Position numbers and translations under genes: made by a program. A stretch of 22,965 nt of DNA from a virus, in the IMG/VR virus record IMGVR_UViG_3300010883_000525, positions 1 to 22,965 of that record; one strand, 5' to 3'. The notes below the pieces were generated by a model, which made no database searches, had not been told where the DNA came from, and worked only from the letters and a program-made list of their open reading frames with translations. The stretch's first letter is position 1; each line of letters opens with the position of its first letter. Of this stretch, positions 804 through 15,907 are shown piece by piece.

Positions 804-1325
804 ATGGAGTTAGATTTTTCAGAACAGATAAAAAAGCGCTATCAAGGTAGTGAAGAAGAAATTAATGATGAAGTTTTTGCCGCCGAAGCTCAATCAGGCA
901 AGAAATTAAATAAACCATTCAGAACACCGAAAGGTCCAAAAAAGTTTTCCGTATACGTCAAAAATGACAAAGGTAATATAGTAAAAGTAAACTTCGGAGA
1001 TCCAAACATGGAAATCAAGCGTGACAATCCAGCTAGAAGGAAAAGCTTTCGAGCTCGACATAAATGTGAAAGTCCGGGGCCAAAATGGAAAGCTAAATAT
1101 TGGAGCTGTAAAATGTGGTCAAAAAAAAGCGTAACTGATGTAACTAAAGGTAACGAAGAAGAAGAGGAGTTAAAAAGTTTAGACGAATCGGACGCGGAAG
1201 ATTCTAACATTTTCGACAACATAAGGAATAAAAAAGCCTACTGTAAAGACAACCCTTCTGCTGAAAAATGTCAAAAGGAAGATCGACCATCCAAAAAGAA
1301 CTGGAAAAAAGCCCAAGACGGATAA
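804..1325 (+). CDS. Putative head-associated protein with MELDFS N-terminus
   Basis: This 173-residue protein is rich in Lys, Glu and Asp. Residues 47-105 form the only ordered-looking block: KKFSVYVKNDKGNIVKVNFG, then DPNMEIKRDNPARRKSFRAR and a Cys-containing PGPKWKAKYWSCKMW segment. I associate this block with phage proteins encoded near head genes, often next to or fused with prohead proteases; that is recollection, not a search. Acidic low-complexity sequence follows, then a second Cys pair (AYCKDNPSAEKC). The first ten residues match those of the charged protein at 10747 in eight positions, although the genes are almost 10 kb apart. This suggests a shared localisation tag, perhaps for packaging into the prohead. 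Function is unproven. Confidence 0.6.
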   Translation: MELDFSEQIKKRYQGSEEEINDEVFAAEAQSGKKLNKPFRTPKGPKKFSVYVKNDKGNIVKVNFGDPNMEIKRDNPARRKSFRARHKCESPGPKWKAKYWSCKMWSKKSVTDVTKGNEEEEELKSLDESDAEDSNIFDNIRNKKAYCKDNPSAEKCQKEDRPSKKNWKKAQDG

Positions 1326-5615: not shown

Positions 5616-6569
5616 ATGCAAGAAGAATATACATGCAAAGAGTGTCAGGGTCAATTTAAATCCGAAGGCGCGCTGCACAAGCACATTAAAGCGCACGACC
5701 TTATCGTTGCTGAATATTATACCAGACATTATCCTAGATATAATAAACTCAATGGAGAACCTCTTCCTTTTAAGAATAAGTTTGATTACTTTAATACAGA
5801 TTTCTCTACAAGAGATCAAATGATTACATGGTGCAATAATCATAACAATAAACAAGATATAGAAGAATACATACTTAAACAATTAAATAACAGGGTAAAA
5901 CAAAAAGAATTAAAATATGCTCCTAACCATATCGAAATAGAAATAAATAAATTACCGCCCATCGAGATCTACAAGCAGAACTTTGGCGGTTATGGACAAG
6001 CTTGCTTAAAGCTTGGCCTTGAACCTATATATGATAAAGGTATAACACAGTACTTCTTTAAGAATACAAATTCAATAGAAGAAATTCCAATATTCATAGA
6101 CACTAGAGAACAACAACCTCTTTCTTTTAAAAATAGCCAAAGCTTAAAGCTTGACTTCGGCGACTATACTATGAGTGGCGACAACTACACTTATACATAC
6201 GTTGACCGCAAAAGCGAGAGTGACTTCAAGGGAACCTTAGGTATGGGCTTTAAGCGCTTCCGTAGGGAGCTGCAGAGGGCAAAGGATTTTAATTCTTATT
6301 TATATATTGTTACTGAAAGTAGTATTAGTAATATAGAGCGCAATAATAATTATAGTCCTCATAGGTCTAATCTTTCTTATATATGGCATAATATGAGATT
6401 ACTTACTCATGAGTTTAAAGGTAATTGTCAATTTGTATTTACTGAGAATAGAGCTAATTCCGAATTACTTATTCCTAAATTACTTTTTCATGGCAAAGAA
6501 TTATGGAATGTTGATTTGCAATATTTTTTTGATAAGTTCGGTTCTAATGTATATAATAAACATGGATGA
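5616..6569 (+). CDS. C2H2 zinc finger plus ERCC4-type nuclease
   Basis: 317 residues in three parts. Residues 7-27 are a classic C2H2 finger (Cys7, Cys10, His23, His27; spacing 2-12-3). Residues 113-137 (PPIEIYKQNFGGYGQACLKL and onward) match the short helical repeat found in homing-type endonucleases (HNH_repeat). Residues 158-245 contain the ERCC4/XPF nuclease core: IFIDTREQQ with Asp162, LDFGDY with Asp183, and VDRKSESD with Asp197, Arg198 and Lys199. The usual ERK is DRK. ERCC4 nucleases cut branched or flapped DNA. With two DNA-binding modules and a place just before terminase, it may be a free-standing homing-type nuclease, or trim or resolve DNA for packaging. No HNH or GIY-YIG motif is seen. 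Confidence 0.7.
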   Translation: MQEEYTCKECQGQFKSEGALHKHIKAHDLIVAEYYTRHYPRYNKLNGEPLPFKNKFDYFNTDFSTRDQMITWCNNHNNKQDIEEYILKQLNNRVKQKELKYAPNHIEIEINKLPPIEIYKQNFGGYGQACLKLGLEPIYDKGITQYFFKNTNSIEEIPIFIDTREQQPLSFKNSQSLKLDFGDYTMSGDNYTYTYVDRKSESDFKGTLGMGFKRFRRELQRAKDFNSYLYIVTESSISNIERNNNYSPHRSNLSYIWHNMRLLTHEFKGNCQFVFTENRANSELLIPKLLFHGKELWNVDLQYFFDKFGSNVYNKHG

Positions 6570-6699
6570 TGATAGAAATCTTTTATTACCCGATATCCCT
6601 ACGGGACTATCGGATGATTGCTTTGAAGAAGCTTTAGTCCATTTAATAACCGAACGCGATAATGACTTGGATAGACGGAACCCAACAGGAGAGGAATAA
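6562..6699 (+). CDS. Possible 45-residue acidic protein
   Basis: The ORF starts at ATG 6562, inside the last codons of the nuclease gene (8-base overlap), and ends at 6699, overlapping the terminase start by 38 bases. The product begins MDDDRNLLLPDIPTGLSDDC and is strongly acidic. The ATG lies close to the nuclease stop in the way translationally coupled genes do, and it fills the only gap between nuclease and terminase. It is far too short for a typical small terminase subunit. An alternative is that it is non-coding leader sequence for the terminase gene. Confidence 0.4.
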   Translation: MDDDRNLLLPDIPTGLSDDCFEEALVHLITERDNDLDRRNPTGEE

Positions 6700-8536
6700 A
6701 TACTCTTCGTCGATTAACGACGAAATACTTGCCAAGAAAGGGTTTCTCGAAGAGCGGGAAGCCAAAATACTTTTATACAAGTTTCTTCGTAGTAATACTA
6801 CATTTGCAGTTGATATGCTTAGTGGTGTTAAATTATTTCCATTCCAACATATGGCTGTAAAGGCCATGATGGAGTCGGACTATTTTATGGGAGTTTGGTC
6901 TCGAGGTATGTCGAAGTCTTTCACTACAGGCATTTTTGCCTTTCTTGATGCAATCATGAATCAAGGTGTTGAGATTGGCATTATTTCTAAATCTTTTCGT
7001 CAGTCTAAAATGATTTTCAAAAAAATAGAAGACATTCTCGCAAAGCCTGAAGCGGCAATGCTAGCGCAATGTGTCACCCGCAAAGCTAAGAATAACGATC
7101 AATGGACTCTAGAAATTGGCTCGAGTCGAATCCACGCCTTACCGCTAGGGGATGGAGAGAAACTTAGAGGGTTTCGCTTTCATAGAATCATAATTGACGA
7201 ATTTCTTTTAATGCCTGAGAGAATTTATAACGAAGTTATTGTCCCCTTCCTATCGGTAGTAGAAAACCCTACCGAACGTGAAGAACTTTATAATTTGGAA
7301 ACCAAGATGATCGATGAGGGAAAAATGACCGAAGAAGAGCGTCATGCGTGGCCTAATAATAAATTAATAATGTTATCCTCTGCTTCTTATAAATTTGAAT
7401 ACATGTACAAGCTTTATGAGAAGTTTGATCATTTAATCCAAGGGAAGATTCCTGAAGGTGGAAATGCCCATAGAACTATTATGCATTTTAGTTATGATTG
7501 CGCTCCGGGACAATTATATGATCAAAATTTAATTAACCAAGCTAAGGCTAGTATGAGTCAAAGTCAGTTTGATAGGGAATTTGGGGCTGTATTTACAGAT
7601 GATAGTTCGGGGTATTTTAAAATATCAAAAATGGCTAAATGCACTATAACTGACGGTAATGCTCCTTGTGTTGAAGTTGCTGGGGAACCGGGAGATAAAT
7701 ATTTATTAGCCTTTGACCCTAGTTGGGCAGAAAGTGAAAGTAGTGATGACTTCGCCATACATGTTTTTAAATTAAATGATGAAAGTCATTCAGGGACCCT
7801 CGTACATAGCTATGCTTTATCAGGAGCACGAATGAAGGATCATATTTTTTATTTCCATTATTTATTAACTAATTTTAATATTGTTTCAATAGTAGGAGAT
7901 TACAATGGAGGCGTCCAGTTCATGAGCGCGTGCAATGAGAGTAGCTTATTTAAACAAAAAAACTTGAAGATAGGAAATATTTCTGCCGATCTAGATAGTC
8001 CAGAAAACTACCAAGAGGGGCTTAGAAAAGCTAAATTGGATTACAATTTAAATGAAAAAAAGATATGCATACTTCGCAAACCTACTTCTCAATGGATCAG
8101 GACAGCTAACGAATTATTACAATCTAACTTCGACCATGGAAGAATATTTTTTGGGGCGAGAGCTGTCAATGACGACTACCAGAAGCAAAGAAGCAAAAAG
8201 ATACCCATAAAGGATTTGAAATTTCTTCGTCGTATAGATGATTCAGATAAGCAAAGTGATGCGGCTAAAATGATAGACTTTGTCGAGCACCAAGTAGATA
8301 TTATTAGAAAAACTAAATCCGAATGTGCTCTTATCCAAATAAAAACAACTTCTCAAGGAACTCAAACATTTGACCTGCCTGACAATCTAAAAAGGCAAAC
8401 AGGACCAGAAAAAGCGCGAAAAGACTCCTACTCCGCATTTGTACTAGGTAACTGGATGATTAAGATTTATTATGATATGCATAACATCCAAGAAACACAA
8501 GAAACCGCCACCTTTACTCCTGTATTTATTGCCTAA
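6662..8536 (+). CDS. terL: Large terminase subunit (packaging ATPase and nuclease)
   Basis: 624 residues, typical for TerL. The N-terminal ATPase has an adenine-region FPFQ, a P-loop-like WSRGMSKSF at residues 79-87 and Walker B RIIIDE with Asp179 and Glu180. The C-terminal RNase H-like nuclease supplies three acidic positions: Asp352 (LLAFDPSW), Asp413 (VGDYNGG) and Asp533 (KQSDAAKMID). The P-loop has Ser instead of Gly before the Lys. TerL powers DNA translocation into the prohead through the portal and cuts concatemers. The start overlaps the small acidic ORF and lacks a clear Shine-Dalgarno sequence; GAGAGGAAT lies just downstream of it, with no alternative start near. Its final 60 or so residues (QIKTTSQGTQ and onward) lie beyond the nuclease core. 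Confidence 0.93.
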   Translation: MTWIDGTQQERNKYSSSINDEILAKKGFLEEREAKILLYKFLRSNTTFAVDMLSGVKLFPFQHMAVKAMMESDYFMGVWSRGMSKSFTTGIFAFLDAIMNQGVEIGIISKSFRQSKMIFKKIEDILAKPEAAMLAQCVTRKAKNNDQWTLEIGSSRIHALPLGDGEKLRGFRFHRIIIDEFLLMPERIYNEVIVPFLSVVENPTEREELYNLETKMIDEGKMTEEERHAWPNNKLIMLSSASYKFEYMYKLYEKFDHLIQGKIPEGGNAHRTIMHFSYDCAPGQLYDQNLINQAKASMSQSQFDREFGAVFTDDSSGYFKISKMAKCTITDGNAPCVEVAGEPGDKYLLAFDPSWAESESSDDFAIHVFKLNDESHSGTLVHSYALSGARMKDHIFYFHYLLTNFNIVSIVGDYNGGVQFMSACNESSLFKQKNLKIGNISADLDSPENYQEGLRKAKLDYNLNEKKICILRKPTSQWIRTANELLQSNFDHGRIFFGARAVNDDYQKQRSKKIPIKDLKFLRRIDDSDKQSDAAKMIDFVEHQVDIIRKTKSECALIQIKTTSQGTQTFDLPDNLKRQTGPEKARKDSYSAFVLGNWMIKIYYDMHNIQETQETATFTPVFIA

Positions 8537-8613: not shown

Positions 8614-10731
8614 ATGGCCAAACGTAAATATAATAAAAAAGCTGAATACTGGAAACAGTTTAGCCCTAGCATTGAGAAAGAAAGTTTAGCGAAAGCGGCT
8701 TTAAATGACGAAGAGAATATCGGCCCAATCATAGCGGGCGAACCTTACTATACCCAGACAGCCAAAGCAAATTATGAGCGTACGGGATCTGGTAGGGGCG
8801 GCGTGAGCAGAACAAATACTAGAATGAATTCAGCGACTGTAGCTCCAAAGCTATGGAAGTACGCGAATATCCGAGAAGGAATGCTCCCTTTTTATTACAC
8901 AAAGCTTGGGGCTGACGTAAGAGATTGCATATTACTTTGCCAGAAGGCTTATGCTAATATTCCAATTTTTCGAAATGTTATTGATATTATGTCTGAGTTT
9001 GCTAATACCGAACTTTATCTAGAAGGAGGGACAGAGAAGTCTCGTAATTTTATTGACAAATGGTTGCAGAAAGTAAAAATATGGAATCTTAAGGATCAAT
9101 TTTTTAGAGAATATTACAGGAGTGGTAATGTATTTATGTACAGGCTAGACAGTAAGTTTAGTAGTGAAGATTTCGCTAAAATGTCAACTATATATGGTTC
9201 TGAATTTATGAAGCCCGGACAAATTCCAATCAGGTATATTCTGCTTAATCCGTATGATATAGCTACTGTTAGGAATACGAATTTTCAAGGCCAAGTCTAC
9301 CGTAAAGTATTGTCCGAGTTTGAGCTAGAAAGATTACAGGATCCAAAAACAGACTACGATGTTGAAGTTCTTAAAAGCTTACCAAAAGAAACTCAAGATT
9401 TAATTAAGGAGGGGGGATATGGATTTGAGGGTATATCTATGGAGCTTGATCCTGATAAATTAACTTTTGCTTTCTATAAGAAGCAAGATTATGAGCCTTT
9501 TGCTATTCCTTTCGGTTTTCCTGTATTGGACGATTTGAACTGGAAACTAGAACTCAAAAAAGTAGATCAATCAATAACCAGAACGATTGAGAATGTTATC
9601 TTGCTAATAACAATGGGCAATACTCCTGATAAGGGAGGAATAAACCCGCATAACCTAAAGGCCATGCAATCCTTATTCTCTAATGAGAGTATAGGTAGAG
9701 TTCTTGTGAGTGATTATACTACTAAAGCTGAATTTATTATTCCCGACCTCAATAGAGTATTAGGTCCTGAGAAATATGAAATAGTTGACAAGGATATCAA
9801 AGAGGCTTTACAAAATGTAGTAGTAGGACAAGAGAGATACAGCAATACTCAAGTTAAGGCACAGATTTTTCTAGAAAGATTAAAAGAGGCTAGGAATGCA
9901 TTCCTACAAGATTTCTTAATACCTCAAGTAAAATTAGTTTGTCAAAATTTAGGGTTCCGCAAATATCCAACCATTAAGTTTCAAGAAATTGATCTCAAGG
10001 ATGAAGTTCAATTACAAAGAGTTACTACGCGTCTTATGGAGCTTGGTATACTAACCCCAGAGCAAGGTATTACTACTATAAAGACTGGACATTATCCTGA
10101 AGGTTCAGAGTTACCTAAGAAGCAAGAAGCTTATATAGACCAACGCCAAAAAGGTTACTATACGCCACTTGTTGGAGGTCAGCCTTTAATGCCTGACGGA
10201 GAAGGAGGGGGTATGCCTGAGAACACCAATGAGCCAGAAAGTGAAAAACCAACCGTTAAGAACGTAGTAGATGATGAAAGTATAGAGCCCGGAGCAGGTC
10301 CAGTTACAGTAGGACGACCTAGCAAAAAGATAAAACAAGAGCGGGGCAGGCCTAGCGGTTCAGACGGTAGAGATAATTTAAAGCTAACAACCAAGGCAGT
10401 CCAAGATGTGGTTTACGAGATAGAGGATTTATTAAAGTTCGCTCAAAAAGAAATGCGTAGCTCTCATAAAGTCAAAAGACTTTCCAATGACAAGAAAACT
10501 TTATTAGATGAATTATGTAAAACTGTAGTTATATCTACGAACAAAGATGAGTGGAGAGATAAAGTAACTTCGTGCATTAAAGACTTTTCAGGGATAGAGC
10601 GATTAAGCCCTTTACCAGAAGTCTTAGAAGCCTCTCAGGATCATGAATTAGAAATTTATCCTGCAGCCTTAGTTCACCACGCTCAAGAAAAAGATTCTCA
10701 AACCTCTAAAAACTGTGTAAAAAAGCAATAA
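8614..10731 (+). CDS. Portal protein
   Basis: 705 residues. It forms the dodecameric ring at one head vertex through which DNA enters and leaves. The body (about residues 80-525) has portal-like features: a wing and stem region with LLNPYDIATVRN, FPVLDDLNWKLELKKVDQS and FLERLKEARNAFLQDFLIPQ, and the order directly after terminase is the normal one. A Gly/Pro/Glu-rich linker (about 525-590) leads to an unusual helical tail (about 590-690, QDVVYEIEDLLKFAQKEM and onward), which may contact the scaffold or internal proteins. The start is set by the promoter just upstream rather than by a ribosome binding site. Assignment rests on length, order and general pattern. Confidence 0.85.
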   Translation: MAKRKYNKKAEYWKQFSPSIEKESLAKAALNDEENIGPIIAGEPYYTQTAKANYERTGSGRGGVSRTNTRMNSATVAPKLWKYANIREGMLPFYYTKLGADVRDCILLCQKAYANIPIFRNVIDIMSEFANTELYLEGGTEKSRNFIDKWLQKVKIWNLKDQFFREYYRSGNVFMYRLDSKFSSEDFAKMSTIYGSEFMKPGQIPIRYILLNPYDIATVRNTNFQGQVYRKVLSEFELERLQDPKTDYDVEVLKSLPKETQDLIKEGGYGFEGISMELDPDKLTFAFYKKQDYEPFAIPFGFPVLDDLNWKLELKKVDQSITRTIENVILLITMGNTPDKGGINPHNLKAMQSLFSNESIGRVLVSDYTTKAEFIIPDLNRVLGPEKYEIVDKDIKEALQNVVVGQERYSNTQVKAQIFLERLKEARNAFLQDFLIPQVKLVCQNLGFRKYPTIKFQEIDLKDEVQLQRVTTRLMELGILTPEQGITTIKTGHYPEGSELPKKQEAYIDQRQKGYYTPLVGGQPLMPDGEGGGMPENTNEPESEKPTVKNVVDDESIEPGAGPVTVGRPSKKIKQERGRPSGSDGRDNLKLTTKAVQDVVYEIEDLLKFAQKEMRSSHKVKRLSNDKKTLLDELCKTVVISTNKDEWRDKVTSCIKDFSGIERLSPLPEVLEASQDHELEIYPAALVHHAQEKDSQTSKNCVKKQ

Positions 10732-10746
10732 CTAACCACTTTTATT

Positions 10747-11802
10747 ATGGAACTTGATTTTTCTAAACGTATTAAAGACTCTTCGGAGTTACAGCAAATG
10801 ATTGCTGAACAAAAAAGCCGTAAGCAGATTAATGATCTGCCTGACTCAGATTTTGCATACATAACTCCGGGAGGCAAAAAGACTGATGGGAAAACTGTCC
10901 CTAGATCATTAAGGCACCTCCCAATAATGGATTGTGCTCATGTTAAGAATGCTTTAGCACGCCTACCCCAAACAAAAATTCCAGCAGCAGCTAAGGCTCA
11001 AGCTTTAACTAAAATCAAAGCCGCCGCTAAAAAGTGCGGAATTGAAGTTAGCGAGTCCACAGCTAAAGACTGGGAGAAAACTGACAAAGACGAACTCAAG
11101 AAAGACGATAAAAAAGAAAAAAAAGAACATTACAAGGACGCGGTAAAAGATGATGATAGTAAACTCGAAAAGCTTAAAAAGGACAAACCATCCGAAAAGA
11201 AAAGCGCAGAGACTAAAGATCTTAAAAAAGATGTTAAATACGATAAGGATAAAGAATCCAATGCCGCAAGCCCAGCACAAAAAGCTGCAAGAGAAAAATT
11301 TAAAGAAATGATCCGCAAGAAAAAAGGTGGCGGAGACAAAGACTCTGATGACGACAAAGATTCTGGTGACGACAAAAAGTCTGACGATAAGAAATCTGAT
11401 GACAAGAAATCTGATGACAAGAAAGGCGATAGTGAAAAATCTAAAGCTTCAAACCCTTACAACAATCGGACTCTGAATAAAAACGAAGCTAATTACGAAA
11501 GCCGAGACAAGAAAGAACTTAAGCAAGATGACAAGGGTCAAAAAGAAAAGCATGAAAAAGATGCTATAAAAGATGACAAAAAACAAGTCAAAGACATCGA
11601 CAGAGATGAGAAAGAAGATAAGAAGGCTCTCGAAGAAGATGAGGCGATGATGACTAAAAAGGTAGCAATGAACATGGAAGAGGATGACGCAATGAAAAAA
11701 ATGCGCTCACAAGTAGCTTTACTAAAACAAGAAAAGGCTACAATGCAAACAAAATTAGATGCTATGATGAAAAAAATGCCAGCATCTGATGTTGAAACCT
11801 AA
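10747..11802 (+). CDS. Highly charged MELDFS protein, probable internal head protein
   Basis: 351 residues. The N-terminus MELDFSKRIK matches the gene at 804 in eight of ten positions. Residues about 36-100 form a compact block (DFAYITPGGKKTDGKTVPRS, then ALARLPQTKIP and IKAAAKKCGIEV) that I have seen described near or fused to phage prohead proteases and portals (DUF6582-like), from memory. The rest is Lys/Asp/Glu low complexity containing a 27-residue duplicated module and a KSDDK repeat, ending in a Met-rich coiled coil (about 300-345). It lies between portal and protease-scaffold, where internal core or scaffold-associated proteins are usually encoded. The start of the next gene overlaps its last 14 bases. 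Role inferred from position and composition. Confidence 0.6.
   Translation: MELDFSKRIKDSSELQQMIAEQKSRKQINDLPDSDFAYITPGGKKTDGKTVPRSLRHLPIMDCAHVKNALARLPQTKIPAAAKAQALTKIKAAAKKCGIEVSESTAKDWEKTDKDELKKDDKKEKKEHYKDAVKDDDSKLEKLKKDKPSEKKSAETKDLKKDVKYDKDKESNAASPAQKAAREKFKEMIRKKKGGGDKDSDDDKDSGDDKKSDDKKSDDKKSDDKKGDSEKSKASNPYNNRTLNKNEANYESRDKKELKQDDKGQKEKHEKDAIKDDKKQVKDIDRDEKEDKKALEEDEAMMTKKVAMNMEEDDAMKKMRSQVALLKQEKATMQTKLDAMMKKMPASDVET
11083..11585 (+). repeat. Duplicated coding module within the charged head protein
   Basis: Two copies of a charged module lie at about 11083-11160 and 11506-11585. They read DKDELKKDDKKEKKEHYKDA and DKKELKQDDKGQKEKHEKDA at their starts, and both continue with V/I-K-D-D. 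The DNA copies differ at many synonymous sites, so the duplication is not recent or the region drifts quickly. Confidence 0.6.
11341..11430 (+). repeat. Degenerate 15-base tandem repeat (KSDDK)
   Basis: Consecutive units of about 15 bases based on GACAAGAAATCTGAT encode KSDDK repeated about four times, preceded by two looser DKDSDD/DKDSGD units. Such arrays change length by slippage, so strains may differ here. Confidence 0.75.
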
Positions 11803-14095
11803 GATACAGCACTCTATTTCAACAGTCCAAAACGTTGATTCTAAACGTTATGGATTGTCTCAAGAATTGAGAAATAAAGCGTCGATACCCTCGACGCTTA
11901 TTTCGTTAAAAGATATACCGTACTCTTCGTTCAATAGAAACTCTAGCATTGAGACAGCTAACGAGTTAAAATCTATAAAGCAATCTCAAAGAAATATTCC
12001 TGAATGGTACACTCCTGAATATGCAGAAAGACTAGATAATGATTTCTTAGGACTATTTAAAGATTATGCAAAAACTAACGATTTAAGCATAGACGAAAGA
12101 TATATAACAGAAACACTTAAAGATTTAGATGGTTTTATAATTTCTTTAAAGGGTTTTTATGATAGGCCTAGACCTGCTGATTTAAAAGACTACCATGGGG
12201 TTAATATAGATGTTGATAAAAGCGACACTTCGCAAACTCCTTCGTATCCAAGTGGGCATGCATTACAGGGTAAGTTAATCTATAGATTGTTAGAGATAGA
12301 CAACCCGTCTCATTCGGAAAATCTCAAAAAAATAAGTGATCAAATAAGTTATGCCCGCATACTCAGGGGGGTTCATTTCCCGAGCGATAATGAATTCGGC
12401 CATAGAATCGTAGATAAATATTTAATGCCCAAAATAAATAAAACTGTGTATTTAAAAACTAAAGCATCCAAGCAAATTATGAAAAAAGATAATCCCTTTA
12501 AGTACATAAGCTCCTTTGAGAGCGAGATTGCAGCGTCATGTGTTGATGGTAGCTGTAAGAGATTTAATATTAGCGAAGCTTCACTAGACACATTAAGACC
12601 GCTAATTCCAGAAGAAGTAGACTTAAGTAAGAATATAGACTTACTTGGGGTTGCATTCAATGCTGCAGTAGTAAATAAATTTAATAAAAATGGTGATGGT
12701 ATAGATACTGAGACAGCCCTAACTGTTAGTGATTATTTTATTAATAAACCAACTAACATAGAACACAATAAAGAAAAAGTAGTTGGTCATATTATCTCTT
12801 CCGCATTTAGCGACATAAGCACAAGCGAACTTTTAGACCCAGAACAATTAGCTGGAACATTAGATCCTTTTAATATTGCATTAGGCGCTTTAGTTTATAA
12901 AGTTGTTAATCCATCATTTGCTAGGATGTTAGAGCAGACAGATGATGGAGAGGAATTTCACGATCAGATATCAGCAAGTTGGGAGATAGGGTTTAATGAT
13001 TACTACATAGCTCTCGGCAGTAAAGACTTGAAAGAAGCTGAATTAATTACTGATAGAGCGCAGATAAAAGAATTTAAACAATATCTTCAAGCTTACGATG
13101 GTGAAGGCAAGATGGAGGATGGTACCTTAGTTAATCGTCTAGTAATTGGGGAAATATATCCTTTAGGGATAGGCTTTACAGCTACTCCAGCCGCTGAAGT
13201 AAAGGGGGTTGTAGTTAAAAATCAACAAAAAATACAACTGCAAAAAGACAAAGCAGCCGCAGAGGTTATAGAAGTAAGGAATACGCATACAGTTCAAAAA
13301 AGAATTAAAAGTAAAAAAAATAGTTCCCTTTCTGAAGAAAATGATGTAAACAAGTCAAACGCATTAATTATGGATACTAAAGATCTAATAGAACAAATCG
13401 AAGGCCTGTTAACGGACCAGCTTAAATCTAAGCTACCTGAAGAGGCTATCGCTAGCGTTTCTAGAGTAATGATGGACGCCATCAAGCAAAAAGACGAACT
13501 TTGGCAAAACGCAAAGGCTGAAAAAGAAAACGCCCTTTCCGAAGCTAAAGAACGTCATGACATCCTCGCAACCGAAGTTGATTCGGTTAAGGAGCAGCTT
13601 GTGGCTACAGAAAAAGCTTTAGGAGAACTAGCAGAAGAAAAACGTCTTCGCGAAGCTAAAGACCTCTTTAATTTACGCATGGGAGTCATTACTGAAGCCT
13701 ATGAGTTAAGAGAAGAAGACTTAAGAATCGTCGCGTCAGAGCTTTCTGAGCTTGATCATCAAGACGAAGCTTTCGCATCTTACAGAGAAAAACTTGACAT
13801 CATATGGGAACATAAGACTAAAGCTCATCTTAAGACTCAAGAAGAGGCCTTCCAGTCCCGCTTAGAAGAAGCGGTACAAGAACGCCTTTCAACACTTAGC
13901 GAAAGTGCAGCTTCAACAAAAACTGAATCTCCGGATACTTCTGACGAAGTAATCGAAGATATATTGGAAAATGTAGAAGAAGAATCTTCCGCTACAATTA
14001 CCAACAATAACGAAGCGGCTTCTGCTGAAGAACTTTCGCTACGAGACAGGTTTAATAAAGCCTTCTCATCTGAAAACATTCAAATCAAATATTAA
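11789..14095 (+). CDS. PAP2 phosphatase - prohead protease - scaffold fusion
   Basis: 768 residues with three parts. Residues about 60-215 carry all three PAP2/haloperoxidase motifs: K-x6-RP (Lys121, Arg128, Pro129), PSGH (154-157), and R-x5-H-x3-D (Arg190, His196, Asp200, in ARILRGVHFPSD). Residues about 270-480 read as a phage prohead serine protease: GVAFNAAVVNKFNKNGDGID, then KPTNIEHNKEKVVGHI with His326, and a candidate Ser at 395 or 397 (ISASWEIGF). From Met528 the protein is a long helical scaffold with coiled coil, ending in a charged capsid-binding-type tail (LSLRDRFNKAF). Protease-scaffold fusions are known. I do not know of a PAP2 domain joined to one. Self-cleavage would release the phosphatase inside the head. 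The scaffold half uses codons more like the capsid gene than the first half does. The gene start overlaps the previous gene by 14 bases. Confidence 0.8.
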   Translation: MLKPKIQHSISTVQNVDSKRYGLSQELRNKASIPSTLISLKDIPYSSFNRNSSIETANELKSIKQSQRNIPEWYTPEYAERLDNDFLGLFKDYAKTNDLSIDERYITETLKDLDGFIISLKGFYDRPRPADLKDYHGVNIDVDKSDTSQTPSYPSGHALQGKLIYRLLEIDNPSHSENLKKISDQISYARILRGVHFPSDNEFGHRIVDKYLMPKINKTVYLKTKASKQIMKKDNPFKYISSFESEIAASCVDGSCKRFNISEASLDTLRPLIPEEVDLSKNIDLLGVAFNAAVVNKFNKNGDGIDTETALTVSDYFINKPTNIEHNKEKVVGHIISSAFSDISTSELLDPEQLAGTLDPFNIALGALVYKVVNPSFARMLEQTDDGEEFHDQISASWEIGFNDYYIALGSKDLKEAELITDRAQIKEFKQYLQAYDGEGKMEDGTLVNRLVIGEIYPLGIGFTATPAAEVKGVVVKNQQKIQLQKDKAAAEVIEVRNTHTVQKRIKSKKNSSLSEENDVNKSNALIMDTKDLIEQIEGLLTDQLKSKLPEEAIASVSRVMMDAIKQKDELWQNAKAEKENALSEAKERHDILATEVDSVKEQLVATEKALGELAEEKRLREAKDLFNLRMGVITEAYELREEDLRIVASELSELDHQDEAFASYREKLDIIWEHKTKAHLKTQEEAFQSRLEEAVQERLSTLSESAASTKTESPDTSDEVIEDILENVEEESSATITNNNEAASAEELSLRDRFNKAFSSENIQIKY
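13370..14095 (+). CDS. Possible separately started scaffold protein
   Basis: An in-frame ATG at 13370 (Met528 of the fusion) would give a 241-residue free scaffold, as lambda Nu3 is made from within gene C. The context TTAATTATGG resembles the A/T-rich starts of the head genes (before 10747, 14099 and 19008), none of which has a Shine-Dalgarno sequence. Codon choice changes near this point toward the CTT, CGT, GCT and GAA-rich style of the following structural genes, as expected if this half is made in greater amount. No promoter is evident, so it would need internal translation initiation. Confidence 0.4.
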   Translation: MDTKDLIEQIEGLLTDQLKSKLPEEAIASVSRVMMDAIKQKDELWQNAKAEKENALSEAKERHDILATEVDSVKEQLVATEKALGELAEEKRLREAKDLFNLRMGVITEAYELREEDLRIVASELSELDHQDEAFASYREKLDIIWEHKTKAHLKTQEEAFQSRLEEAVQERLSTLSESAASTKTESPDTSDEVIEDILENVEEESSATITNNNEAASAEELSLRDRFNKAFSSENIQIKY

Positions 14096-14098
14096 ATT

Positions 14099-14776
14099 AT
14101 GGCTATAAGACTACTACCATTCCGTCAGTACGCCGAAGAAGATGTTGTAAATCTGTACGCCAGTGACAAAGTCAACGCACAAGTTGATACTGTTCAGGGC
14201 GGCGGAGATGCTGGCATCTTTGTCAAGGTCAGTGCTGGGGACTTCAGTCTTGATCCCATCCAATACGCAGATAGTACTTACCTCGGTAAGACTGATTATC
14301 CGTTTATTGGGAGAGATCAATACCCGTCAGTCCCACTCAAAATAACGCCCGCTACGTCCGGTTCTACCGTTCTGGGGATTACATTGTTACAAACCGCCCT
14401 CGCGGACGAAAACGGTGAAAAGCTTCTCTACTATCCGCAGAAAAAGCTAGAAACTCAATCCGTCCTTACAGGAGAAGCCGTTCCCGTTCTTGGGAAAGGT
14501 ATAATTACTTTAGCTAATGGCGCAGGCTCTTTGCCTCGTGCGATTGATGGCGACGTAAATATTGGAGACCACCTTTGGGTTAGAAATGCTGGACTTGTTA
14601 CTGGAGTAGCTACTCCTGACTTAGTTCCTGCTGACTGTCAAAGCATTGGCCAAGTAATTGGAACTGGAGTTCGCGAAAATCGCGGTGTCTCTACTGACCA
14701 ATTTGCTGGAGCTTCTGTTGGGACAGGCGTTGCTAACCAAAGCGGACTCTATGCTGTTGTTCGTATTAACTGCTAA
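14099..14776 (+). CDS. Probable head decoration protein
   Basis: 225 residues, starting three bases after the scaffold stop and ending 12 bases before the major capsid gene. It is a beta-rich protein with many Gly, Val and Thr residues. It begins MAIRLLPFRQYAEEDVVNLY, followed by a Gly-rich turn (VQGGGDAGIFVKVSAGD), and ends in a compact segment (QSGLYAVVRINC). The place between scaffold and capsid is where decoration or stabilisation proteins (gpD-like) are commonly encoded. It is larger than lambda gpD (about 110 residues) and could have two domains. A head fibre is an alternative. Codon use resembles the capsid gene, which suggests high expression. Confidence 0.6.
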   Translation: MAIRLLPFRQYAEEDVVNLYASDKVNAQVDTVQGGGDAGIFVKVSAGDFSLDPIQYADSTYLGKTDYPFIGRDQYPSVPLKITPATSGSTVLGITLLQTALADENGEKLLYYPQKKLETQSVLTGEAVPVLGKGIITLANGAGSLPRAIDGDVNIGDHLWVRNAGLVTGVATPDLVPADCQSIGQVIGTGVRENRGVSTDQFAGASVGTGVANQSGLYAVVRINC

Positions 14777-14788
14777 CTTTTAAAGATA

Positions 14789-15907
14789 ATGAATATTACT
14801 CTTAAGCGCACCGACGAGCAAGTAGAGCTTGTAAAGGCGATGGCATCCCGTGACCGTACCATAGCGTACGAAGCTCAAGCCGCTCTGGCCGAGTTCATGG
14901 GTCCCGTACTTGCGGAAGTTGTTAACCAAGCTCCTGTAGTGAGCAATTTGTTTAGCTCTTTTTCATTTAACGCCGATAGTAACCCTAGTCTTCCACTTGA
15001 TCTCTATTATGATATCAATGCTGATGACTATGTTAAGGTTTATAGTACAACGGTCCCCGGTGGTTTACCCACCAACCAAGTGCTTCCCACTGCTAGTGAA
15101 TTAAAATTCACAACCTATCGTCTCGATAGTGCTGTAAGTTTTGATCGTCGCTACGCTCTTCAATCACGTCTTGACGTGATCGGGAAGTCAATGACCCGCG
15201 TTGCTCAGGAAGTTCTGTTAAAGCAGATTTCTACCTCAGCAAATCTTATCCTTGGATCTTTGGCTGATGCCGAAACTAATGGGGAATCTCATGTCATGGA
15301 CCAAGCGTCTGCGACACTTGGATTCACATTGGCCGACTTCAATAAGCTTGTAACTAAAGCAAAACGCATTAATACTGCGTGGACCGGTGGTACAGCAGAA
15401 GGAGCCGTAAAAGGAATTACTGATCTCATTGTTTCTCCTGAAACAATGGAAGACCTTCGTGCCATGTCTTACAACCCTGTAAATACGGCTCAGGCAGCTT
15501 CTGGAACAACTTCCATCGCTGCTCCTGAATCCTTCCGATCTGGTGTTTTCACCAACGGTGGAGTGCCAGAATTATATGGTATCGGACTTATGGAAATCAA
15601 TGAGTTAGGACCTAACAGAAAATTCTGTAGGCTCATGAATACCTTTATGAGTGCATCTAGTGTTCCGGGCAACTCTTCGTTGTTCGGAGCTGGAGATGAC
15701 CTCGTTATTGGTATTGACCGATCACGCGAATCTTTGATTCGTGCAGTTGCAACTGATGCTGAAAGTGGCGCTGAGTTTACGCTCACCGCTGATGATCAGT
15801 ATAGCAACCGTCAGCAAAAGCTGGGTTGGTTCGGCTCTCTTGAAGAAGGTCGTATGATTGTCGATAACCGCGTTCTTACCGGCGTAGTTGTTGCAGGTCA
15901 CGGTTAA
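14789..15907 (+). CDS. Major capsid protein
   Basis: 372 residues, in the range of HK97-fold capsid proteins. The N-terminal helix (EQVELVKAMASRDRTIAYEA) is followed by an E-loop-like stretch, and later come helix-rich segments (LDVIGKSMTRVAQEVLLKQI) typical of the spine helix and a core of beta strands ending in LGWFGSLEEGRMIVDNRVLT. It follows scaffold and decoration genes and is followed at once by the strongest terminator of the window, as expected for the most abundant virion protein. There is no long N-terminal delta region, in agreement with a separate scaffold. Only a weak AAAGA precedes the start. Confidence 0.88.
   Translation: MNITLKRTDEQVELVKAMASRDRTIAYEAQAALAEFMGPVLAEVVNQAPVVSNLFSSFSFNADSNPSLPLDLYYDINADDYVKVYSTTVPGGLPTNQVLPTASELKFTTYRLDSAVSFDRRYALQSRLDVIGKSMTRVAQEVLLKQISTSANLILGSLADAETNGESHVMDQASATLGFTLADFNKLVTKAKRINTAWTGGTAEGAVKGITDLIVSPETMEDLRAMSYNPVNTAQAASGTTSIAAPESFRSGVFTNGGVPELYGIGLMEINELGPNRKFCRLMNTFMSASSVPGNSSLFGAGDDLVIGIDRSRESLIRAVATDAESGAEFTLTADDQYSNRQQKLGWFGSLEEGRMIVDNRVLTGVVVAGHG

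Follow-up and report, generated by a model that had tools for sequence, protein, structure and literature searches.

The window, by which we mean the whole stretch of DNA analysed, is an IMG/VR virus record of 22,965 bases and is a fragment. Its features are listed in Table 1. A single ORF in this record joins a PAP2-type phosphatase, a prohead protease and a predicted scaffold. The initial annotation had described the frame as uninterrupted, which was confirmed, and K121, R128, P129, P154-S-G-H157, R190, H196, D200, E325 and H326 were all found where it had placed them. The Lys/Asp-rich gene shares 14 nt at its 3' end with the start of the fused ORF, an overlap that possibly provides translational coupling. 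The protease gene adjoins the portal, scaffold and capsid genes. The capsid gene was assigned by position; its product had no family match in Pfam or PHROG and no match among the cultured phages of INPHARED. The scaffold is a putative assignment, made only from its position between the protease and putative capsid genes, its coiled-coil-like composition and its conservation. The phages bearing the fusion are uncultured and probably marine.

Table 1. Features of the head gene region in the window, with the evidence for each.
Feature	Coordinates	Strand	Evidence
Terminase large subunit (T4 gp17-type)	6662..8536	+	Pfam Terminase_6N 2.9e-10; phrog_2 3.9e-25
Portal protein	8614..10731	+	phrog_2739 E 0.0029; tblastn to Bacillus phage Slash portal E 8e-9
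GTGTA signal	10715..10719	+	32 nt 5' of gene 10747..11802
Lys/Asp-rich gene	10747..11802	+	phrog_16160 E 3.3e-5 (function unknown)
Fused ORF: PAP2 phosphatase, prohead protease and scaffold, 768 aa	11789..14095	+	Ten further contigs alike
PAP2/class A acid phosphatase-like domain, residues 1-230	11789..12478	+	Pfam, PDB phmmer, AlphaFold, fold match
Catalytic motif K121-x6-R128-P129	12149..12175	+	Alignment of PAP2 proteins
Catalytic motif PSGH 154-157	12248..12259	+	Alignment of PAP2 proteins
Catalytic motif R190-x5-H196-x3-D200	12356..12388	+	Alignment of PAP2 proteins
GTGTA signal in PAP2 coding tail, codons V220-Y221	12446..12450	+	33 nt 5' of Met231
Met231, probable internal start	12479..12481	+	Aligns with the initiation codon in unfused protease genes
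Prohead protease domain, residues 231-527	12479..13369	+	T4 gp21 fold match; conservation
TGTAA element at V520, 5' of internal scaffold start	13345..13349	+	DNA-level conservation
Met528, probable internal scaffold start	13370..13372	+	Met at or beside aligned column in relatives
Scaffold region (inferred)	13370..14095	+	Position; charged, coil-like sequence; conserved in relatives
Conserved gene between scaffold and putative capsid gene	14099..14776	+	Same location in relatives
Putative major capsid protein	14789..15907	+	Position and strong conservation only

The Pfam PAP2 family matched residues 119-204 (E 2.7e-6; 27.6 bits, cut-off 27.2), and a phmmer search of the PDB found class A acid phosphatases (E 4e-5) with their catalytic residues aligned. 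AlphaFold produced a compact model of residues 1-235 with a pLDDT of 90.4. The solved structures that matched this model best were the acid phosphatases 7f17/7f18 (Z 17.1, 184-190 residues). The match to 7f17 had an rmsd of 2.8 over 184 residues, and the all-helical PAP2 core fold was present. Judged by overall fold, the model is confidently PAP2 and gave no ground for rejecting the domain proposed for this region. When 21 fused and standalone PAP2 proteins were aligned, the residues of the KX6RP, PSGH and RX5HX3D motifs were invariant or nearly so; K121, R126, R128 and P129 did not vary at all, and the catalytic residues were invariant among the fused proteins. No membrane segment or signal peptide was detected in the PAP2 domain (maximum 19-residue hydropathy 0.42). 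The domain has its complete set of catalytic residues, and we predict a soluble class A acid phosphatase-like enzyme that is active. Dephosphorylation of lipids, one of the functions first suggested, is unlikely because the domain has no membrane segment and its nearest structures are soluble class A enzymes.

The window protease matched no sequence family, no convincing Pfam or PHROG match was found in 48 relatives, and fold comparison was therefore used. The protease model (pLDDT 75) matched T4 gp21 best (5jbl; Z 9.6 over 126 residues), in keeping with a gp21-type fold as one of those originally put forward. Herpesvirus proteases ranked next (Z 6-7.6), and sequence identity to gp21 was 8%. 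The model is thus assigned the T4 gp21/herpesvirus (assemblin) fold. H326 (in KPTNIEH), H334 and S395/S397 (in SASWE) are invariant, and this conservation makes them candidates for the catalytic Ser and His. The linker between PAP2 and protease is short, with no recognisable cleavage site.

Two internal Met codons of the fused ORF appear to be start sites. The column of Met231 holds Met in every fused protein while its flanks vary, and it corresponds to the start of the unfused protease genes. GTGTA lies 33-39 nt 5' of this Met in 10/10 fused loci, within invariant codons of the PAP2 tail, where it uses the valine codon GTG (11% of valines there). The same sequence precedes 35 of the 44 distinct unfused protease starts. 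It is also enriched 5' of genes in this lineage. Against an expectation of 0.6 per bin, it occurred 41 times between -11 and -20, and 20 and 16 times in the two bins that cover -31 to -50. At the scaffold start, the Val codon GTA with a preceding T was found in 50/50 distinct loci. The full TGTAA was kept at the DNA level in 49/50, although the preceding residue varies, and an in-frame ATG followed within 42 nt in all 50. A sigma-70 promoter scan gave no more sites than shuffled sequences. GTGTA is best read as a lineage-specific upstream signal, and GTGTA and TGTAA may drive expression. Because conserved internal starts occur together with these embedded signals, we propose separate PAP2-protease-scaffold, protease-scaffold and scaffold products, with PAP2 probably a minority tag. 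PAP2 would therefore be expected in the prohead at a fraction of the protease copy number, and separate short products do not fit the earlier idea that the phosphatase enters at about scaffold copy number. The nested design did not feature in the initial annotation.

The fusion is real, as had been proposed, and recurrent, since it is present in frame in the window and in ten further IMG/VR contigs from other samples. The three-part order was the same in these related genomes, and no frameshift separated phosphatase from protease. The fused relatives form three clades (PAP2 identity 38-57%) on both the protease and portal trees; the trees require three changes, which fits a separate origin in each clade as well as a single origin followed by losses. 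Within clades, the dN/dS of PAP2 was about 0.10-0.14 for informative pairs, showing that the domain is under selection, and dS exceeded 1 within a fused clade. About 74 of 80 relatives have an identical gene order without PAP2, and it is therefore dispensable. PAP2 was not found elsewhere in 27 contigs of unfused relatives, which are possibly fragments. Conversely, the protease was not found in 12 contigs with a distant PAP2, these being fragments or other lineages. INPHARED gave no match to the fusion and only weak matches to the PAP2 part. A search of the available literature found no description of a PAP2-protease-scaffold fusion; several "PAP2" matches referred to a phage of that name or to a peptide unrelated to the enzyme.

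The PAP2 family occurs widely in viral sequence data, with at least 591 matches in viral contigs. In a separate, T4-like clade (100% tree support), 26 of the 27 distinct proteins begin with a T4 internal-protein-like peptide followed by [IL]xE, compared with 8 of 165 other ORFs there. The 27 proteins are not independent because they belong to one clade. The corresponding N-termini in T4 are MKTYQEFIAE (ipII/ipIII) and MKTFKEF (ipI). The function of such capsid-targeting sequences (CTS) and their Glu-specific cleavage have been described (PMC9026906; PMC5694885; PMC3012670). In this T4-like clade, the sequences to which PAP2 is fused had no Pfam match and one PHROG match of unknown function, and the T4-like fusion itself had no match in INPHARED. 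The window protein begins MLKPKIQHSIS and does not carry a T4-type targeting peptide ending in [IL]xE. The fusion and the CTS-like N-termini thus appear to tie the PAP2 family to the prohead by two unrelated routes.

That the phosphatase is fused to the head protease and scaffold points to its carriage within the virion. The most likely purpose is still the one first put forward, entry into the prohead. We think it fairly probable that the ORF is a three-tier nested head gene whose minority PAP2 form is packaged, released proteolytically and probably transferred to the host along with the DNA. Translation from 11789 would produce PAP2-protease-scaffold, GTGTA at 12446 with the ATG at 12479 would give protease-scaffold, and TGTAA at 13345 with the ATG at 13370 would give scaffold alone. 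The long form, as the minority product, would use its scaffold tail to co-assemble into the core of the prohead, in the way that gpC of lambda uses its Nu3-like part. As the head matures, proteolysis would cut the PAP2 domain free. At about 26 kDa, it would be retained in the capsid because it is too large to exit the shell with the small peptides. Like the internal proteins of T4, it would probably accompany the DNA into the next host, where it would act as a soluble phosphomonoesterase, with nucleotides or other small phosphates as the most plausible targets. More tentatively, and with a little under even confidence, we suggest that a virion-packaged acid phosphatase is widespread in environmental phages. 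This strategy would have arisen on at least two occasions, through T4-type targeting peptides in the T4-like clade and through the protease-scaffold fusion, with the window lineage placing its protease and scaffold signals inside upstream coding sequence to obtain three graded products from one frame.

The phosphatase could instead be a cytoplasmic metabolic enzyme for nucleotide or phosphate salvage, fused when a standalone gene beside the protease lost its stop codon, and tolerated through the protease's own start and cutting by the protease. Many related phages have a standalone PAP2 gene of about 200-232 aa, and in many other phages such genes show no obvious targeting sequence. In L095, which has homologous terminase and portal genes, a standalone PAP2 lies one gene past the portal gene and groups with the fused domains (tree support 90). 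PhoN, a class A acid phosphatase encoded by marine magroviruses, has been reported as one of their auxiliary metabolic genes, and the passages on it show no link to the head, unlike the window PAP2 (PMC10160649). The embedded start and signal would also make the protease independent of the fusion. However, one stop codon would split the genes, and the in-frame fusion has been kept in three clades despite the dS above 1; the T4-like clade also appears to enter the prohead by a different route. We regard a cytoplasmic enzyme as unlikely, but as an account to be taken seriously.

The other alternatives carry less weight. PAP2 could serve the protease chiefly as a pro-domain, with a structural or regulatory role such as delaying it or helping it to dimerise, and its catalysis would then be unimportant. 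Its compact model and its place N-terminal to a protease that needs temporal control would suit such a role, which is nonetheless improbable given the near invariance of the catalytic residues in fused and standalone proteins, the low dN/dS and the lack of PAP2 in most relatives. Haloperoxidase-like chemistry, also raised in the initial annotation, is possible on the fold alone, as haloperoxidases align to the model at Z 12-15. Class A acid phosphatases of similar size rank first by both sequence and fold, whereas haloperoxidase chains are far larger, and a vanadium haloperoxidase is very improbable. Lastly, an assembly or sequencing artefact might be suspected in a fragmentary record but is refuted by the ten in-frame contigs from other samples, since their PAP2 domains have diverged so far, and it can be given practically no weight.

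In lambda gpC/Nu3 and similar genes, protease and scaffold share one frame, and an internal start yields scaffold alone. The window ORF resembles these in its single frame and predicted internal start, but differs in its gp21/herpesvirus protease fold, the PAP2 tier in front and the embedded signal before the protease start. With T4 gp21 it shares the fold and a gene location between the portal and putative capsid genes; in T4, gp21 and the scaffold gp22 are separate genes, and gp21 is not known to carry a phosphatase. T4 IPI/IPII/IPIII and Alt are CTS-bearing head proteins that are injected, and the T4-like PAP2 clade has a similar N-terminus. In the window, the carrier would be the protease-scaffold itself and the cargo a phosphatase. 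Few head-borne phage enzymes are known, and these act ahead of any phage gene expression. Building a phosphatase into the head protease would add a new kind of cargo and a novel loading route. The proposed nested arrangement, with its signals placed inside coding sequence, also offers a testable rule by which an uncultured lineage would set the relative amounts of scaffold, protease and cargo.

Bacterial class A acid phosphatases are secreted. The window PAP2 is like the non-specific enzymes PhoN, PhoC and Pseudomonas 7f17 in its fold, its KX6RP, PSGH and RX5HX3D motifs and its predicted solubility; unlike them, it lacks both a signal peptide and a membrane segment and is joined to a capsid protease. 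It also has Ala at position 189, where the canonical motif has Ser before R190; this Ser is present in L017/L089.

The initial annotation had proposed that a PAP2 phosphatase, a prohead protease and a scaffold share one frame. Translation gives a single frame of 768 residues at 11789-14095 without interruption, and all the residues it named (K121, R128, PSGH at 154-157, R190/H196/D200 and EH at 325-326) lie where it placed them. Residues 119-204 match Pfam PAP2 marginally over its cut-off, and a sequence search matched the PAP2 part to class A acid phosphatases in the PDB (4e-5), with the catalytic residues lined up. The structure prediction it had called for gave a confident AlphaFold model of residues 1-235 (mean pLDDT 90.4) with an acid phosphatase fold, matching Pseudomonas acid phosphatase 7f17/7f18 (Z 17.1). 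In a hydropathy scan, no stretch of the PAP2 domain reached the hydrophobicity expected of a signal peptide or membrane segment. Together, these results argue that the N-terminal PAP2 domain is soluble and resembles class A acid phosphatases, and its fold and residues predict an enzyme. A hairpin early in its coding sequence could reduce the long product or be due to chance.

Residues 231-527 are recognised by no sequence family in searches with the window and its relatives. The model of this part (pLDDT 75) has T4 gp21 as its top match among solved structures (Z 9.6), followed by herpesvirus proteases (Z 6-7.6); in BFVD it matches many proteins annotated as prohead proteases. The candidate catalytic residues H326, H334, S395 and S397 are invariant across the aligned protease family. 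The label scaffold was given to the remainder of the frame from where it lies and from its charged sequence of coil-like character.

A viral scan with the fused protein found 197 relatives. Of the 80 taken, about 74 match residues 234-768 only and a few match the whole fusion; their common gene order is terminase, portal, protease-scaffold and putative capsid. With a second viral scan, the search for the same three-part order that had been suggested found the fusion in ten contigs besides the window (L002/L085, L003/L086 and L017/L089 are duplicate fetches of one contig each). These fall into three clades on both the protease and portal trees, and PAP2 dN/dS within clades is about 0.10-0.14 for pairs with enough sites. 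The fusion is not an artefact, since ten other contigs in three clades carry it. Three changes of fusion state are required on the two trees, so three separate origins or a single origin followed by losses would both fit. In the relative L095, a standalone PAP2 that clusters with the fused PAP2 lies one gene downstream of the homologous portal gene, which looks like the pre-fusion state.

Unfused protease genes begin at the residue aligned to Met231, which is kept in every fused protein while neighbouring residues vary. In this phage lineage, the pentamer GTGTA occurs 41 times in the bin 11 to 20 nt before genes and 20 and 16 times in the two bins covering 31 to 50 nt, against 0.6 expected per bin from its rate within genes. 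A strong excess 11-50 nt upstream of genes is seen in the window and L001-L089 (contigs of relatives), and GTGTA is probably a lineage-specific expression signal. It lies upstream of the protease start in 35 of 44 distinct unfused loci, and 33-39 nt upstream of Met231, within coding sequence, in all 10 fused loci examined. There it is encoded by invariant Val-Tyr codons; GTG makes up 11% of valine codons in these genes. The linker between protease and scaffold holds a second element, TGTAA, with an in-frame ATG downstream: the valine codon is GTA with T before it in 50/50 distinct loci, though the preceding residue varies, and the ATG follows within 42 nt in 50/50. We read GTGTA and TGTAA as putative expression signals of the protease and the scaffold, respectively, and they may act in transcription; a sigma-70 scan found nothing unusual.

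A separate PAP2 clade (tree support 100) occurs in T4-like phages, near UvsX, a deoxyribonucleotidase and a T4-type DNA polymerase closest to those of cyanophages (52%). Among its distinct proteins, 26/27 have MKTFxQ-like N-termini with [IL]xE, versus 8/165 other ORFs of those loci. These starts resemble those of T4 ipI (MKTFKEF) and of ipII and ipIII (MKTYQEFIAE). In T4, peptides of this kind target their proteins to the core of the prohead and are removed by cleavage after Glu (PMC9026906, PMC5694885, PMC3012670). Since the 27 proteins are akin, the count is one shared trait, not 27 events. PAP2 proteins of the T4-like loci L112-L177 have about 700-800 aa and lie near the deoxyribonucleotidase gene; their C-terminal parts match no Pfam family.

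Because two unrelated routes appear to lead PAP2 to the prohead, a prohead-packaged phosphatase is the best reading and a somewhat probable one. The long product would enter the prohead core via its scaffold tail and be cut during head maturation, and the phosphatase would remain in the head. The strongest competing reading takes PAP2 as a metabolic enzyme of the cytoplasm whose fusion is tolerated; in its favour, PMC10160649 reports a class A acid phosphatase as a metabolic gene in marine archaeal viruses. The deoxyribonucleotidase beside the T4-like PAP2 hints, no more, at nucleotides as substrate.

Nested scaffold starts, head-packaged proteins and viral acid phosphatases are already known separately. 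The three-part fusion was absent from described phages in the collection searched, and no paper describing it was found, which is weak evidence given partial coverage of the literature. We know of no described phage with the combination of these parts, nor of one with the signals within coding sequence.

Queried with 21 PAP2 domains, viral sequences yielded at least 591 loci, and bacterial and archaeal genomes yielded 31 with similar patterns. Among the best 80 viral loci, PAP2 is standalone, fused to the window-type protease or within other long proteins. In another lineage it adjoins terminase and portal genes, and in a further one it neighbours a phrog_7595 protein or is joined to it in one frame.

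Coordinates of features in the window and in relatives' loci
Sequence	Positions	Strand	Feature
Window	804-1325		phrog_7595 domain, in the window's left part
Window	5616-6569		ERCC4-type nuclease match; C2H2 zinc-finger match at the N-terminus, weak and under the cut-off
Window	11789-14095	+	Fused PAP2-protease-scaffold frame
Window	11877-11899		Terminator-like 9-pair hairpin, ~90 nt into PAP2 coding sequence
L095	3741-4874		Gene of the tubulin/FtsZ family (Pfam 6e-11), flanked by portal and standalone PAP2
L096	1398-6410		1,670-aa frame, possibly a polyprotein; PAP2 at ~residues 1193-1342
L149	4810-5661		phrog_7595, gene before PAP2
L154	5335-6522		phrog_7595 fused to PAP2
L171	5794-6987		One frame, PAP2 then stretch with HEIGH, a zinc metallopeptidase motif
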